Part shown: positions 11,868 through 30,784 of the stretch, piece after piece
Layout: every line of letters starts with the position of its first letter
Position numbering within the stretch: position 1 is the first letter of the stretch
Origin: a virus
Virus record (IMG/VR): IMGVR_UViG_3300045950_000204
Location: 1 to 38,326 of that record
DNA length: 38,326 bases
Strand: one strand, 5' to 3'
Position numbers and translations under genes: made by a program
The notes under the pieces: generated by a model
Told to the model about the DNA's origin: nothing
What the model saw: only the letters and a program-made list of their open reading frames with translations
Database searches by the model: none

Positions 11868-13783
11868 TTGGGCTTGCCTTTCACTGTAGAATCAAAGCTT
11901 CTCTGTTTCACTGTAGAATCAAAGCTTCTCTGTTTCACTGTAGAGCCGCGTAGTATTTCGATTATTTTTGTAATAATCGCAAGATCGCTCAGTGTTATCT
12001 GGTCAGTCGCAATCAGGATTTTCGATATTAATACTGATTCCATAACCGATATCGTATCTGTAATAATTCTGATCTTATCAGTAAGCACTGTATCTGAAAG
12101 ACCTATCGAATCCAAAATTTCTTTAATTATTTGTGCGGTTTCGATTATCACAATGTCGGAAAGACTAATAGAATCAAGGATTGCCAAAGCTCTATCTCTT
12201 TTCACTTCATCCATCGCATTAATTGCATCAAGGATTGTAAAAATTTTATCTCTCAAAATGCTGTCTGTAAGAGAAATTGAGTCAAGTATTTCGAGTGCCT
12301 GATCTCTGTATACGGCATCGGTTAACCCAATTGTTTCAAGTATCTGCAGCGTTTTATTTATGAGCATTACATCTGCAAGCGAAATCGTATCTTCTATAAT
12401 ATTGAGTTTATCAAGTATAACTGAATCAGAAAGGTTGATAGAGTCTTCTATTAGAGTTAATTTCTGATAGAGTTGAATCAAGTCCGATAGACTGATAGAA
12501 TCGATGATATTGAGTGTTTTGTCTGTCAGAATGCTGTCTGATAATGTTGTTGTATCTGCTATTTGTAGGGTCTTGTCTCTTAGGATTACGTCCTCAAGGC
12601 TTATCGTTTCTATTACCTGCGGGCTCCAATCTCTCAGAGAAATATCAGATGCACTTATACTGTCTGTGATATAAAGCGTTTTGCATATTAAAATTGAATC
12701 CGTAAGCCCTATCGAATCTAAAACTTCTTTTATAATCTGTATATATTCATCTGCACCAATATCCCATGTCCCTTCACCTGGTCTTGTCTCGCCATCTATA
12801 TCAGTTGTGAAGGCGAGATTAGCATCACCTGAAAGGTCTGCGCCATAGTTTCTCGCCCCAGCATCATTTGAAGCAAGGTGAAAATCTTTGTTAGCTGCAT
12901 CAACAAAAGTAACAGTTACACCATTACGTGGATTAGAGCCTGGTGCATCTGTCTGGGTAGGACCTGAGAGGTTATTTGTAGATGCAGCGTCAAAAGTGCC
13001 GGAATAATTATCAGTGTTATTATAGGAAATATTGTTTTTGCTAATAGCTGTTCCGAGCTCGCGTTGAATCCCTAAGTAATTATTATATACTGTATTATTA
13101 TACACATAAGCTGTATGGTCAGCTTCACTTATGCTGATTCCTCTCCCAGTACTGCCAAGAACGTTGTAAATAATATTGTTCCAGATGTATGCTTTACTCC
13201 CTGCATTACCAAGAGAAAAAACATATATCCCATAATGAGAATAAGTAGAGTCTGTTAAACCTTGTATAATAAGATTCTCCACATACATTTCATTTACAGC
13301 ACCACCGGAATATAAAATAATGCCAGAGCTACCATGATTTGCTAGTGATGTCATTTTAAGTTGTAGTCCATCAATCCTGACGTGTGGATCTTGCACCCTA
13401 ATCTGTGTGCCATTGGTGATTAATTTATATTTTGTATCATCCCATTTCCCATTATGACGTGCTTCAGGAGTAGTATAGATTTTTATATACCGTGTAGAAT
13501 CTGTTATAAAGCCGTCAATTATAACTGGAGTAGTGTCAGTGACACCAGTCCAATCACCTTGTATCTTTGCAACAGCTATTTCATCTAAGGCAACAAGGTC
13601 TCTTTGTTCCCCCGCTTCCCAAGCAGACAGGGATGTGTAATTACATCCCTGGCCTGACGGGCAAATGGTTTTTACAACCTCGGTGGCAGCATATGATGAG
13701 CTAAGAGCAAAAAGTAAAGTGCTGAGAGTTAAGAGCCAGGAGCTCAAAGCGATAAATTTCAATGAATCTCTATTAAGTCTCAT
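11864..13783 (-). CDS. Exported beta-helix protein with 14 tandem ~18-aa repeats
   Basis: A 639-aa protein. Residues 1-33 are a Sec signal (LLFALSSSYA|A). Residues about 35-345 look like a right-handed parallel beta-helix: short recurrent strands such as VRIDGLQLKM, YVENLIIQGL, AYIWNNIIYN and AYVYNNTVYNN, then the segment DIDGETRPGEGTWDIGADEY common at the end of such domains. Residues about 350-610 hold about 14 imperfect 18-19-aa repeats of the form I(L)DSISLSDS(I)LRDKxL. The last 27 residues contain an exact duplication from a 27-bp tandem DNA repeat. It could be a depolymerase-like tail spike, an exported surface protein or an adhesin. It lies inside the late operon between two other signal-peptide genes. 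Confidence 0.65.
   Translation of the reverse strand: MRLNRDSLKFIALSSWLLTLSTLLFALSSSYAATEVVKTICPSGQGCNYTSLSAWEAGEQRDLVALDEIAVAKIQGDWTGVTDTTPVIIDGFITDSTRYIKIYTTPEARHNGKWDDTKYKLITNGTQIRVQDPHVRIDGLQLKMTSLANHGSSGIILYSGGAVNEMYVENLIIQGLTDSTYSHYGIYVFSLGNAGSKAYIWNNIIYNVLGSTGRGISISEADHTAYVYNNTVYNNYLGIQRELGTAISKNNISYNNTDNYSGTFDAASTNNLSGPTQTDAPGSNPRNGVTVTFVDAANKDFHLASNDAGARNYGADLSGDANLAFTTDIDGETRPGEGTWDIGADEYIQIIKEVLDSIGLTDSILICKTLYITDSISASDISLRDWSPQVIETISLEDVILRDKTLQIADTTTLSDSILTDKTLNIIDSISLSDLIQLYQKLTLIEDSINLSDSVILDKLNIIEDTISLADVMLINKTLQILETIGLTDAVYRDQALEILDSISLTDSILRDKIFTILDAINAMDEVKRDRALAILDSISLSDIVIIETAQIIKEILDSIGLSDTVLTDKIRIITDTISVMESVLISKILIATDQITLSDLAIITKIIEILRGSTVKQRSFDSTVKQRSFDSTVKGKPK
11882..11935. 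repeat. 27-bp tandem repeat, two copies
   Basis: Two exact consecutive 27-bp units (11882-11908 and 11909-11935), followed by the first part of a third, encode the repeated peptide STVKQRSFD at the C-terminus of the beta-helix protein. Confidence 0.9.
13699..13750. repeat. Low-complexity CTAAGAGC repeat, copy 2
   Basis: GAGCTAAGAGCAAAAAG, GCTGAGAGTTAAGAGCC and GAGCTCAAAGC form a degenerate octamer repeat. On the minus strand it encodes ALSSWLLTLSTLLFALSSS, the hydrophobic core of the signal peptide of the 639-aa protein. Confidence 0.65.
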
Positions 13784-24972: not shown

Positions 24973-25043
24973 TGGACTATAGCCTTCCACACAAAGCTAC
25001 GACCGCTACGGCAGTGGTCAGCGGGGTGTGGCCCTGCACTGCC
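24972..25043. other. Structured non-coding segment after the MuF gene
   Basis: Nested complementary arms are present: CCACAC (24987-24992) with GTGTGG (25026-25031), and inside them CCGCT (25003-25007) with AGCGG (25020-25024). Alternative pairings are GGCAGTG (25010-25016) with CACTGCC (25037-25043), and GTGGA (24972-24976) with TCCAC (24986-24990). It could be an RNA element, a processing site or an inserted repeat. I see no gene in 24973-25249. Confidence 0.5.
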
Positions 25044-25114
25044 CAGTTAAAAACAATATAAATCATTCGGGTGGATTTGTCAATATGGCAAAGCAACATA
25101 ACCATAAGCTAATA

Positions 25115-25219
25115 TGTCATTCCGAACTTGTTTTGGAATCTCTTGAGATGCTGAAATAAATTCAGCATGACAGTTATAGTGGGGTTAGATGTCACCCTGA
25201 ACTTGTTTCAGGGTCTCAT
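25115..25219. repeat. Two palindromic repeats in the MuF-gpG gap
   Basis: The first (25115-25173) has TGTCATTCCGAAC at one side and TTCAGCATGACAG at the other. The second (25190-25219) is TGTCACCCTGAACTTG with TTTCAGGGTCTCA. Both are of the interspersed chromosomal type that translates as HSELVLES or HPELVSGS. They separate two genes that are usually adjacent. Confidence 0.75.
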
Positions 25220-25767: not shown

Positions 25768-26061
25768 TTATGGCAGTTTCTCTTGTCTGTCATCTTTCTG
25801 GTCGGTCTGAGCCATGACATCATACACAAACCGCTCGCTGACTCCAAGTTTTGCAGCGAGCGACTTAATATTATTACCATCATAATACTTGCGGATATAA
25901 CGTTTTTTGGCTTCTATCAGTGGTTTTGTTGAGATGAAAAGATTCATCGACGAAAGGTTCACCCACAAACTCACCAGCACGTCCAACCCGCAGTAAATCT
26001 TAATAAGTGCCGTATCATTTGTGAGTAGATCATCAATTTCTATTTCTCTAATCCAATCCAT
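25768..26061 (-). CDS. mor: Mor-family middle/late transcription activator
   Basis: A 97-aa protein. Residues 49-90 (IEAKKRYIRKYYDGNNIKSLAAKLGVSERFVYDVMAQ) match the Mu Mor/C C-terminal helix-turn-helix, preceded by the dimerisation part (LTNDTALIKIYCGLDVLVSLWV). In Mu, Mor activates the middle promoter and its paralogue C the late promoters; here one protein appears to serve. It is the last gene of the leftward early block, converging on the packaging operon. Likely target: the divergent region at 19.65-19.81 kb. The start overlaps the upstream gene and has a GGGAG site. Confidence 0.8.
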   Translation of the reverse strand: MDWIREIEIDDLLTNDTALIKIYCGLDVLVSLWVNLSSMNLFISTKPLIEAKKRYIRKYYDGNNIKSLAAKLGVSERFVYDVMAQTDQKDDRQEKLP

Positions 26062-26290: not shown

Positions 26291-26489
26291 TTATAATTTC
26301 CTCTGGATTCCGCACTTGATGCGGAATCCAGAATGCATTGTCCAAAGATTTCCTCTAAGGAAATCTTTTTTGAGGCGGGGGAAATCCCCGCCTCCCTTGC
26401 ATCGCTCCGCCTTGCCAAGGAAAACATTGCCCCGCCGTGCGCTGCAGAGCCCCGCCATGCGTTGCATCGCCTTGCCTGGCATGGAAATG
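26291..26489. repeat. Hairpin and GC-rich repeat cluster between two early genes
   Basis: Three perfect hairpins stand in a row: 13-bp stem 26302-26314/26320-26332; 11-bp stem 26344-26354/26358-26368 followed by TTT; 9-bp stem GAGGCGGGG/CCCCGCCTC (26372-26380/26386-26394). Then 26397-26483 is a degenerate GC-rich array (units like CATGCGTTGCATCGCCTTGC). Open frames here give low-complexity Gly/Ala/Arg peptides and are not genes. The second hairpin could terminate rightward transcripts running past mor. Confidence 0.7.
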
Positions 26490-27056
26490 TTATTTTACGA
26501 TTCTCCATTTGATAACCTGAAACCTTCCAAAGGGCCCTTTTTTCTCAGGTCTGAAGTCTCCAACTCCAATCTTTTTGCCAGCATCATCTATAAGTAAGCG
26601 AACGAATTTTTCATTAAACATTTGCTCATCTACTTCCAAATCAAAGGTACATTTCCAATTATCTAATCGTGGCCGATGGCACATAATACGCCCGCCAGTA
26701 GGTGGGATTACAACTGAGCGACTATCCACTTCAAAATTAGTTGTGTTAAGAGGTATCACTGCATCGAGTATAAAGATTCCTGCGGGGATCAAACTGGTTT
26801 TATTAGTAGTAACCTTGGTCTTACCGTATTTGTGAAATTTGCCTGCTGCAATGATCGCCGCATAGATATTTGGCCCCGGTATATACAGATTATTTTTGTC
26901 GTCTACATATGCCTTTTGTTTTGCTTGCTCTCTTGGTGTGCCTTTGTCCCCCATATGAACTATTGATAAGCCATTGCTGACCCTAATTTCTGACTTTTCT
27001 GTGAATCTGTTCATTAATAATGGACTTACACCTTGGATTGTGCATTCTATTCGCAT
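26490..27056 (-). CDS. Early protein with RAMP/Cas7-like motifs, function unknown
   Basis: A 188-aa protein from the ATG at 27056 after AGGAGG; longer in-frame starts lie inside the upstream gene. The N-terminus MRIECTIQGVSPLLMNRF and the segment YIPGPNIYAAIIAAGKF, together with the C-terminal glycine-rich loop IGVGDFRPEKKGPFGRFQV, resemble RAMP-fold (Cas7-like) RNA- or nucleic-acid-binding proteins. There is no Cas gene or CRISPR array in the window, so a phage-specific nucleic-acid-binding role among Gam and transposition genes is more likely. The resemblance is by motif only. Confidence 0.5.
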   Translation of the reverse strand: MRIECTIQGVSPLLMNRFTEKSEIRVSNGLSIVHMGDKGTPREQAKQKAYVDDKNNLYIPGPNIYAAIIAAGKFHKYGKTKVTTNKTSLIPAGIFILDAVIPLNTTNFEVDSRSVVIPPTGGRIMCHRPRLDNWKCTFDLEVDEQMFNEKFVRLLIDDAGKKIGVGDFRPEKKGPFGRFQVIKWRIVK

Positions 27057-27271
27057 TACTTCACCTCCTTGCTTAATGATTTTTTCACCCGATCTGCCCA
27101 TGTAGTTAAAAAAACTCCGAGACATCGCACATCCTCTGATTGAAACTGAATTTCAAATGCTGAGGATAAAAGGAGAAGTCTTGCTTGAAGTTCGATGCAT
27201 CGCAGGTGGGATAAAACCAAATCCTTAACAGCCGATTCGGGCTCGGCCTGGCCCTTTGTGTGCTCTTTCAT
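27056..27271 (-). CDS. Small early protein with a truncated paralogue upstream of GemA
   Basis: A 71-aa protein from the ATG at 27271, six bases after AGGAGG; the longer open frame upstream reads through a structured non-coding leader. It is helical: SAVKDLVLSHLRCIELQARLLLLSSAFEIQF, then VRCLGVFLTTWADRVKKSLSKEVK. The last 45 residues are nearly repeated at 29939-30079. The stop overlaps the next start (TAATG). Function unknown; the duplicated C-terminal half may be the functional part. Confidence 0.6.
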   Translation of the reverse strand: MKEHTKGQAEPESAVKDLVLSHLRCIELQARLLLLSSAFEIQFQSEDVRCLGVFLTTWADRVKKSLSKEVK

Positions 27272-27458
27272 AAAGCACCTCCTAAGATTTTCAGCTTGTC
27301 CCGAACAAAAATGCCCAGGACTGCTGACGGCCTTAGGAACCGCTCCCGCCCTTACGGGTAGGGACATCCTGGGCGAATTGCCCAAAAACAGAACCGCTCC
27401 CATCAAGGCGGGGAGCAAGCCCCTAAGAAAATCAGCATTTAAAGTATAAGTCGAAATC
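27272..27458 (-). promoter_or_regulatory. Structured leader, 187 bp non-coding
   Basis: Between two leftward genes lie several stems: GCCCAGGA (27313-27320) with TCCTGGGC (27367-27374), CCCG/CGGG at 27345-27358, and GGGC/GCCC at 27371-27383. GAACCGCTCCC occurs twice (about 27337 and 27391), and a related CCTAAGAxxxTCAGC sequence lies at each side. It forms the 5' leader of the 71-aa gene. It could be a regulatory RNA, an attenuator or an inserted element. Confidence 0.5.
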
Positions 27459-27833
27459 TCAGGGGCTGTCAAGTATATTTGTTTGACCAAATATTTCCTC
27501 ATATGCTTCCTTATCCATCGCTCTAATCCTTTTTGCAAGAGATCTGATTCTATTGATATATTGCTTCACTCCCGCCTTATATTCCTTAGAATCCTGCGGG
27601 TAATAAAATCCTGGATTTTTCCCTGTCGATGAACAAATCAAATAACCATGGTGTTCTACTAAATGTTTCACGGTTGCCCTGAGCCTCACCTGTGACACGC
27701 CGACCATTGACGCAAGCCACTTCACAGAGTTTGCGTTTTCTCTCCCTCTGCGAAGAAGCGAAAGTATCCTCTGCTCCTCATGAGTGAGGTCCCTCCCAAA
27801 GGGGGATTTTTCAAAATCAATTTGAAATTGCAT
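27459..27833 (-). CDS. Winged-helix-like early protein
   Basis: A 124-aa protein from the ATG at 27833, which overlaps the Gam stop by 17 bases; the longer open frame runs inside gam. Residues 17-75 (RDLTHEEQRILSLLRRGRENANSVKWLASMVGVSQVRLRATVKHLVEHHGYLICSST) form a winged helix of the kind used by small phage regulators. The C-terminus (YKAGVKQYINRIRSLAKRIRAM) is helical. It may regulate early-to-middle switching; no target is known. Confidence 0.65.
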   Translation of the reverse strand: MQFQIDFEKSPFGRDLTHEEQRILSLLRRGRENANSVKWLASMVGVSQVRLRATVKHLVEHHGYLICSSTGKNPGFYYPQDSKEYKAGVKQYINRIRSLAKRIRAMDKEAYEEIFGQTNILDSP

Positions 27834-28323
27834 CTTTGATCTTCTCGATCGCAGGCTCGATGCGCAACTTGTCTTCCGTCTTTTTCGACGCTCCAATTTT
27901 AGCAAGCGTCTGCTCATCGAGATTGAGCATTAATTCCTTGTCTGGCTCTTTTGTTATTCTCAGATATTGATGCAATCCAAGCGCTTCCATCGCGGCCACA
28001 CAAGCCTTTTTAGCACGTATAACAATTTTGGTTGTCACTTTGTATGCTATAACTCCGAACGTCAACTCTTTAGAACGCTTCTTTGTAAAATCATGCTTAT
28101 ACTCTTCGCAGAATTGAGTGATCTGCAACTCAAGTGCTGATCTTTCAAACCTTAACTCTTTAGCTTTTGTTTCAGCTTGTTCGCGTATTTCATTGATCTT
28201 CAATGTCATGTCGCCCTGGATCTTCTCAATTGCAATATCTATTTCGCCCATGCGTCTCAGTGCTGCATCTACCTGATCCCAGTTATTAATTTTTTCTACT
28301 GTTGTTTTAACCTTTGTTGCCAT
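27817..28323 (-). CDS. gam: Host-nuclease inhibitor Gam
   Basis: A 168-aa protein matching the Mu Gam family. It has a long N-terminal coiled coil (DAALRRMGEIDIAIEKIQGDMTLKINEIREQAETKAKEL), then ELQITQFCEEY, the core RSKELTFGVIAYKVTTKI and the motif YLRITKEPDKELMLNL. Gam is a Ku-like protein that binds the ends of linear phage DNA and blocks host exonucleases. It lies in the early block, as in Mu. The ATG has an AGGAGG site and overlaps the small membrane protein upstream. Confidence 0.9.
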   Translation of the reverse strand: MATKVKTTVEKINNWDQVDAALRRMGEIDIAIEKIQGDMTLKINEIREQAETKAKELRFERSALELQITQFCEEYKHDFTKKRSKELTFGVIAYKVTTKIVIRAKKACVAAMEALGLHQYLRITKEPDKELMLNLDEQTLAKIGASKKTEDKLRIEPAIEKIKDAISN

Positions 28324-29433: not shown

Positions 29434-29939
29434 ATTTCCTCCGTATTTCTGTGAGAATCTATATTCTTAGCACTTTTAGCCTTCATGCTCTGAATCGCCT
29501 TGATGATTTTTCTTGTGTGACTACTATCCAGATCCCGCATGTTTGAAAAGCCCACAATACGACGTAAAAAGGCTTTTAACGTCCATTTACGCTCAATCTC
29601 GCTCCCTGCATAAGAGACCTCACGCCACATAGCTTCGATCATTCTTAGCTGCTTAGGCGAGCCCATGCCCCTGCGCCCCTTGACGTCTTCATACCTGAGC
29701 TTTCCGCGTTTTGAATAGTCACTCCATACACCTGCGGCAATCGCCTTTGCTTCAAGTTTTTTGATGAGGTTCTGCGCTTCGCTGTATGTGAGATCCTTTG
29801 ATGTTGAAACCCAGTAATCGCTGAGCAACAGGCGATATTCATCGTCAGGCATCTTTAATCGGGACTGTAATGTTTTAATACATCGTATCTGCTTTCTCGA
29901 AATCTTTACTTCTTCCGTTTTGACATTGATTGATTGCAT
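29373..29939 (-). CDS. gemA: GemA-like regulatory protein (DUF1018, Mu gp16)
   Basis: A 188-aa protein with the DUF1018 pattern: ISRKQIRCIKTLQSRLKMPDDEYRLLL near the N-terminus, LTYSEAQNLIKKLE, MGSPKQLRMIEAMWREVS and LKAFLRRIVGFSNMRDLDSSHTRKIIKAIQSMK. GemA of Mu modulates host gene expression, reportedly by affecting DNA supercoiling, and is co-transcribed with mor. Here mor is 3.3 kb further downstream. The start overlaps the stop of the remnant ORF (TAATG) after AGGAGG. Confidence 0.88.
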   Translation of the reverse strand: MQSINVKTEEVKISRKQIRCIKTLQSRLKMPDDEYRLLLSDYWVSTSKDLTYSEAQNLIKKLEAKAIAAGVWSDYSKRGKLRYEDVKGRRGMGSPKQLRMIEAMWREVSYAGSEIERKWTLKAFLRRIVGFSNMRDLDSSHTRKIIKAIQSMKAKSAKNIDSHRNTEEIWGIDTQERRQGNGRCSSKS

Positions 29940-30079
29940 TACTTCACCTCCTTACTTAAAGACTTTCTAACCCTATCCGCCCATGTTGTTAAAAAAATAC
30001 CGAAACAGCGTACATCCTCTGCTTGAAACTGAATTTCAAATGCCGAAGATAAAAGGAGAAATCGTGCCGGGGCTGTCAA
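29939..30079 (-). pseudogene. Truncated duplicate of the 71-aa early gene
   Basis: The minus strand encodes APARFLLLSSAFEIQFQAED, then VRCFGIFLTTWADRVRKSLSKEVK, nearly identical to the C-terminal 45 residues of the protein at 27056-27271, with the same AGGAGGTGAAGTAATG junction. The 5' flank CTTGACAGCCCC is also shared with the leader of the other copy (27462-27474), so an internal part has been deleted. A TTG at 30077-30079 overlapping the upstream stop (TTGA) could still allow translation of 46 aa. Confidence 0.65.
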
Positions 30080-30396: not shown

Positions 30397-30784
30397 GTCC
30401 GCCCTCCTGGTTTTTTTCGTCATTGCGAGGAGCGGAGCGACGTGGCAATCCTGATTGATGAGATTGCTTCGCTTCGCTCGCAATGACAGCGGCCTCATCG
30501 TCAATATTAGGATCATACAAACACCTGCATGGTAGGGGTGGACGCGGTCCTGTGTTGCGGACTAACCGCCACACGACCTTTTTTCGCCCGTTTGCTTCCG
30601 TTCTTTTACCGGCCTGTCGTATATAGCCTGCCTGATAAAGTGATTTTAAATAGTTCGATACTGTGCTATAAGGAAGCTCGGTCAGGATTGCGACATCATC
30701 GAAGTTGAATTCGGGAAGTCCTCTTATTATTTTCCAGACCTTTTCGCTGATGCCCTTCGGATCCGGCTGAAGGTGTACTGTCAT
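30386..30784 (-). CDS. Winged-helix protein with repeat-encoded C-terminus
   Basis: A 132-aa protein. Residues 10-75 (KGISEKVWKIIRGLPEFNFDDVAILTELPYSTVSNYLKSLYQAGYIRQAG) form a winged helix. From about residue 99 the sequence (VIASEAKQSHQSGLPRRSAPRNDE) is encoded by the long palindromic repeat at 30419-30487. A natural end near NIDDE around residue 95 is likely in the ancestor. The start overlaps the MuB stop by 4 bases. It is a likely regulator of early genes, probably still functional through its N-terminal domain. Confidence 0.65.
   Translation of the reverse strand: MTVHLQPDPKGISEKVWKIIRGLPEFNFDDVAILTELPYSTVSNYLKSLYQAGYIRQAGKRTEANGRKKVVWRLVRNTGPRPPLPCRCLYDPNIDDEAAVIASEAKQSHQSGLPRRSAPRNDEKNQEGGHVD
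30419..30487. repeat. Long palindromic repeat in the winged-helix gene
   Basis: GTCATTGCGAGGAGCGGAGC is at the left side and GCTTCGCTTCGCTCGCAATG then AC at the right side, forming a long imperfect inverted repeat. The minus strand reads VIASEAKQS...APRND in frame. The same family occurs inside the transposase gene at 31657-31719. Confidence 0.85.

Follow-up and report, generated by a model that had tools for sequence, protein, structure and literature searches.

The protein encoded between the Gam and Mor-like genes of a Mu-like phage very probably belongs to a VIPR system, in which Vipr would coat its own guide RNA and the resulting complex would bind matching DNA and block its transcription. 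VIPR, first reported in 2026 with Vipr of phage SUSP1 as its founding member, is an RNA-guided DNA-binding system composed of a small RAMP protein and vrRNAs built from 9-16 YNNGG repeats with an invariant GGY and a variable NN (PMC13142463). The vrRNA is read against double-stranded DNA with one target base skipped per repeat, and the complex is a transcriptional repressor with activity against competing phages; VIPR has been proposed to be a forerunner of CRISPR effectors (PMC13142463). A literature search with Vipr terms returned no VIPR paper besides this one. We assign the locus to VIPR because the protein matches SUSP1 Vipr by profile and is predicted to adopt a Csm3/Cas7 fold, a tract of period 5 adjoins the gene, tract and gene are linked in relatives, and the surroundings are those of a Mu-like early region; counted against the assignment are a repeat that departs from strict GGY, one broken repeat unit and the lack of a target match. 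The predicted RAMP fold, the full-length homology to SUSP1 Vipr, the tract, its linkage to vipr and the place in the operon all come from the present analysis of the window, by which we mean the whole stretch of 38,326 nt.

Table 1. Features of the vipr locus and its neighbourhood
Feature	Position	Strand	Basis
Window, IMG/VR virus record IMGVR_UViG_3300045950_000204	1-38,326		entire virus record
Mor-like activator	25768-26061	-	PF08765 5.3e-5, just under the Pfam curated cut-off; phrog_532 1.4e-5
Second hairpin	26344-26368	-	folding
Strong hairpin directly after the last repeat unit	26372-26394	-	fold of 26334-26399, z -5.4
vrRNA-like repeat tract, 18 units of 5 nt, C-NN-N-G	26395-26484	-	motif scoring, shuffles
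vipr gene, 188-aa RAMP/Cas7-fold protein (Vipr homologue)	26490-27056	-	intact ORF with stop codon
Direct repeat, 132 nt, 86% identical to 29936-30067	27053-27184	-	repeat comparison
71-aa ORF, stop overlapping the vipr start codon	27056-27271	-	ORF; without family match
Mu Gam-like protein	27817-28323	-	PF07352 7.5e-30; phrog_491

In terms of genomic context, vipr sits between the Gam gene and the Mor-like gene, neighbours that a preliminary description of this DNA had named correctly, in a Mu-like early operon whose surroundings comprise a transposase (phrog_310), an AAA/TniB-like B protein, GemA, Gam and the Mor-like activator. Because of this placement, vipr would be expected to be switched on at infection or induction. 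A minimal VIPR locus is carried by a phage or prophage, and both the Mu-like neighbours and the virus record place the present locus in a phage. The preliminary description also held that the gene stands alone without CRISPR components. The second part of that statement stands, as a regularly spaced direct-repeat family of the CRISPR kind is absent from the whole window and no cas gene was detected among the genes scanned around vipr and the early operon; the first part does not, given the guide-like tract of period 5 that lies 5 bases past the stop codon.

The leaders of vipr and gemA are copies of one another, the 132-nt repeat holding the end of a small ORF (~40 similar residues), a Shine-Dalgarno sequence and a start codon. 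The copying may have run from the gemA leader to the vipr leader or in reverse, and the duplication may be a scar of the module's entry into the phage. Because its end copies the leader ORF before gemA, the 71-aa ORF is probably a copied leader rather than an accessory (vap) gene. Several other repetitive elements were observed in the window. The gap upstream of vipr holds a long, very stable hairpin (27320-27430 (-), z -5.7) that is not a tract of 5-nt repeats, and the tail-gene region holds a perfect 27-nt tandem repeat of 2.4 copies (11879-11944). Palindromic elements lie inside the phage at 30461-30487 and 31657-31683 (exact 27-nt copies), 25118-25217 and 26302-26332; we take them to be REP-like elements, of the kind usual in bacterial chromosomes.

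The fold of the protein had been proposed from the N-terminal segment IQGVSPLLMNRF, the central IPGPNIYAA and the C-terminal segment IGVGDFRPEKKGPFGRFQV, all of which are present as quoted in the 188-aa translation of the minus strand. Few parts of the family are as conserved as the glycine-rich C-terminal segment, in which G164, G166, R169, P170, G174, F176 and G177 are invariant across 14 sequences. The protein matches phrog_4652, a family of unknown function (1.4e-22), and profile searches against Pfam, PADLOC and NCBIfam gave no match. Its match in the PDB is SUSP1 Vipr (36pp_D, 6.7e-8), and a profile of 14 relatives finds the same protein (36pp, E 3.8e-16) over positions 3-187; the remaining two PDB profile hits have E values of 1 and 1.5, so that by sequence profile Vipr of phage SUSP1 appears as the only solved relative. 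An AlphaFold2 model built from the relatives' alignment (mean pLDDT 82, pTM 0.77) was compared with known structures by Foldseek, in which the best 50 of 795 matches are all CRISPR effector chains, led by a type VII chain (E 5.8e-6) and then Csm3, and by VIA-align, which superposes the model on Csm3 (6ifk_E) with Z 11.3 and an rmsd of 4.3 over 159 residues. The model supports a RAMP/Cas7 fold, with Csm3 and type VII Cas7 as its nearest matches, so that the RAMP fold whose absence would have refuted the proposal of the preliminary description is indeed predicted. Profile and predicted structure thus both identify a RAMP homologue related to SUSP1 Vipr, and the predicted fold suits the phage-adapted nucleic-acid-binding role suggested earlier.

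The tract begins 5 nt after the vipr stop codon, on the vipr strand, and reads CCATG CCAGG CAAGG CGATG CAACG CATGG CGGGG CTCTG CAGCG CACGG CGGGG CAATG TTTTC CTTGG CAAGG CGGAG CGATG CAAGG. One unit is broken (TTTTC), and the final unit, CAAGG, is also the one in which the majority of the arrays of the clade terminate. These 18 adjacent 5-nt repeats have the fixed G-Y and variable NN that characterize VIPR guides. With a GGY-weighted scorer the tract is the best of the window (58.6 versus at most 20.8 in 10 shuffles); a looser scorer selects the same 26395-26484 segment (64.6 versus at most 20.7 in 20 shuffles), and in a local test on its own 100 bases it scores 43.0 versus at most 17.6, with 0 of 5000 dinucleotide-preserving shuffles scoring as high. 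Autocorrelation is maximal at lags of 5, 10, 15 and 20. A second, weak tract at 24992-25046 (+), scoring 24.7 (shuffle maximum 20.7) and 25.2, resembles the remains of a gene together with a palindrome and was set aside.

Because the C-NNN-G unit is self-complementary, the strand of the tract was taken from the orientation that it shares with vipr in relatives, in which T, not A, alternates with C at unit position 1. Guides of VIPR systems carry a structured, invariable 3′ tail behind their repeats. The hairpin that directly follows the last unit, after which there is no T-run, is a possible 3′ tail or terminator-like end of the putative guide RNA, and hairpins were also seen by eye after the last unit in L009, L014, L015 and L016.

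The relatives of the window's Vipr comprise a close homologue in one Geobacter genome (L009, 67% identity), close homologues on 12 IMG/VR contigs (L013-L024, 52-66% identity) and close homologues in three further genomes (L034-L036) among 395 sampled from the same phylum, six of which gave any match. L024 encodes the same Vipr as L016 and entered neither the alignment nor the counts. In a tree, the resulting 16-member clade has a support of 88/99, which falls short of the level that the tool treats as firm. More remote homologues occur in named phages (22-31% identity among the 40 listed of 161 records), and GGY/NN tracts lie beside the gene in five of the six named-phage loci that were fetched (L002, L003, L004, L006 and L007). 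The sixth, Listonella phage phiHSIC, has a different repeat consensus: three GCA/NN tracts (TGC/NN on the other strand), which are strand-ambiguous, follow its Vipr homologue ORF22 (L005:3631-3880). Two distant Vipr homologues are accompanied by TC-NN-G tracts opposite the vipr strand, equivalent to GAC/NN on the gene strand (L011:675-2028 and L038:1289-2622). A search with Rfam at gathering scores on 10 of 25 sources returned tRNAs in L023 only.

The main departure from the published repeat concerns the base that follows NN. Among the window units (n = 16), position 4 is G in 8, T in 5, C in 2 and A in 1, and among 694 units of 13 clade loci (all but the window, L035 and L036, with tracts called by script and the last two units dropped) it is G in 293, T in 216, C in 93 and A in 92, so that neither set follows the strict type II GGY consensus. 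The entropy of this base in the 13 loci is 1.82 bits, compared with 1.93 and 1.98 bits for the two N positions. By the same scorer, the GGY-type loci L002, L003, L004, L006, L007 and L012 carry G there in 214 of 226 units; L011 and L005, in which the coding strand is ambiguous, and L001 were left out of this comparison, and the 20 units of L001 have A in 8, C in 3, G in 2 and T in 7. Within the clade, G at position 4 is rare in L013 (7/82) and L023 (3/32) and is kept in L036 (90/105), L035 (28/36) and L021 (20/23). The first base is a pyrimidine in 686 and the last base is G in 665 of the 694 units, a conservation that in part reflects how the units were selected, the published motif and these very sequences having guided the design of the scorers. 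On these counts the constant core is GY, with up to three bases per repeat apparently free. This excludes the strict form of the consensus and not VIPR as such, which we retain because the preprint allows, for some of its types, "a related consensus". The distance of the relaxed repeat from GGY is measured from the published main text and does not establish it as the first of its kind, since fig. S17 of that work may list the same consensus.

In none of the loci, genomes and IMG/VR records searched was a convincing DNA target found under the rule of one skipped nucleotide, which counts against a VIPR system. A local scan of 214 kb of fetched loci with the guides of the window, L009 and L016 under seven pairing rules gave best scores of 10-14.5, alike for every rule. 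Units 3-12 of the window guide, with up to three mismatches, matched 42 places in 37 of 141 genomes from the order of the Geobacter genome G001, compared with 26 for a reversed control; the best of these (2 mismatches, G064) has similar counterparts in several further genomes. The guides of L009 gave 0 and 0 matches in the 141 genomes, and the guide of L034 gave 0 in eight genomes of its family. Exact scans of IMG/VR returned 0 and 0 for the window guide, 0 in a shifted register and 0 for the guide of L020; the guides of L017 and L014 gave one match each (L039 and L040, the latter microvirus-like by its ORFs), which the next guide units do not extend and which we take as chance.

These empty searches, together with the TTTTC unit and the presence of one tract in the window compared with up to nine in relatives such as L020, would also fit a Vipr homologue with a dying guide, in which the tract would be no more than a degenerate remnant, with guided activity of the protein slight or absent, or dependent on guides supplied in trans. 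We consider this improbable. The core bases of the window units are otherwise intact (C or T first in 16 of 16, G last in 15 of 16), the vipr gene is intact, and the free fourth base is a property of the clade (counted above in 13 other loci) rather than decay of the window copy.

Tracts of 5-nt repeats adjoin vipr in 15 of 15 distinct clade relatives, numbering from one per locus to nine (L020), so that a survey of the homologues' neighbourhoods, as the preliminary description had proposed, speaks against a gene that stands alone. At a score threshold of 22 or more, 12 loci contain 38 tracts within 1 kb of vipr (30.6 kb) and 0 in the remaining 77.85 kb; nine opposite-strand hits, also counted, are expected from the self-complementary C-NNN-G core. 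This association is free of the selection effect of the scorers. Two uninterrupted runs of 47 and 61 units flank vipr in L034 (1259-1493 and 2093-2397), far beyond one guide RNA, and are perhaps overlapping guides, by analogy with the staggered arrays of PMC13142463.

In another reading, the tract would be an unrelated host palindromic interspersed repeat (REP-like) beside a Vipr/Cas7-like protein. The window does hold REP-like elements (the 27-nt copies at 30461 and 31657, and similar ones near 25118-25217) and the C-NNN-G units are self-complementary, but the tract folds no better than most of its shuffles (z -1.5), tracts of the same repeat, with different variable bases, occupy the same place in relatives from other phages and from four or more genomes, and no tract of the 12 loci lies away from vipr; we regard a REP-like origin as very improbable. 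Least probable of all is the anti-defence mimic raised in the preliminary description, a stand-alone Cas7-like protein that would poison the assembly of a host CRISPR effector or take up crRNA, in favour of which nothing was found beyond a predicted Csm3/Cas7 fold and a place among the early genes of a phage, whereas the nearest solved relative by sequence is Vipr rather than Cas7 and the protein travels with its own guide tract.

By analogy with the published work on SUSP1, from which ribonucleoprotein formation, DNA binding and repression would be carried over, a VIPR system at this locus would most likely operate as follows. A guide RNA would be transcribed from the tract just behind the vipr stop codon, and Vipr subunits would line up along it, one per 5-nt repeat, each holding the conserved G-Y and turning the variable bases towards the DNA. 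The complex would then bind a matching double-stranded target, probably in a competing phage, satellite or prophage of the same host, and block its transcription.

By eye, the upstream tract runs into the vipr Shine-Dalgarno sequence in nine of 15 distinct clade relatives (L009, L013, L014, L017, L018, L019, L021, L034 and L035), the terminal unit CCAAGG of the upstream array forming part of AAGGAG in L013, L017, L018 and L035 (CCAAGGAG), and downstream tracts often start at the vipr stop codon. This arrangement suggests a shared transcript and a possible feedback of guide formation or processing on vipr translation. A bolder extension, which we hold to be rather unlikely, is that the repeats of the clade carry three informative bases (GY/NNN), the base that is otherwise a fixed G pairing with the skipped target base to give an uninterrupted DNA target read at three bases per subunit, and that the array reaching into the Shine-Dalgarno sequence could feed back on vipr translation. 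Apart from base variability, the triplet reading found no support: stop codons are not depleted in the decoded triplets (19 observed in the sense reading versus 18.7 in shuffles), 34 of 41 guides are stop-free in one of two readings versus 33.3 in shuffles, guide-against-guide comparison gave nothing above shuffles, and the window guide decoded as contiguous NNN had a best E value of 4 in phages and in plasmids.

The closest known counterparts of the locus include the VIPR systems of SUSP1 and P. fulva (type II; PMC13142463, 36pp), with which it shares a phage-borne RAMP Vipr homologue of similar size, the absence of a CRISPR array and a gene-strand guide tract whose 5-nt repeats keep G-Y constant and vary at NN. 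It differs in that GGY has a largely unconstrained first position in the window's clade, and in that its putative guide would end in a simple hairpin, whereas the preprint describes a pseudoknotted tail (PMC13142463). SUSP1 VIPR also has vap1, one of the accessory genes that are typical of VIPR and differ with its type, whereas among 17 loci compared no gene besides vipr is common to all, the next cluster spanning four loci and the other large clusters being other frames of vipr itself; the transposase of L022 is similar to that of the window. The main text of the preprint distinguishes seven types, with GGY/NN "or a related consensus (fig. S17)", and names six vap genes (PMC13142463), and a type without a vap gene would fit the clade. 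With Csm3/Cas7 of type III and type VII CRISPR-Cas, the protein shares the predicted fold over its whole length (Z up to 11.3) and the glycine-rich loop on the C-terminal side, but identity is 11-17% in most alignments among the matches listed, and the window has no CRISPR array, a guide tract of its own and a Mu-like phage operon. TIGR-Tas (PMC12045711) is likewise a phage-borne, compact RNA-guided system for DNA targeting with tandem guide units and, by its published description, is set apart by another protein family. The present locus places VIPR in a Mu-like early operon, pared down to a single gene with a single guide tract, within a clade whose repeat leaves three bases free instead of two. 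Were the third base read, the skip rule would not be universal, and the transition between gapped guide-target matching and the contiguous matching of CRISPR would be open to study within one protein family.
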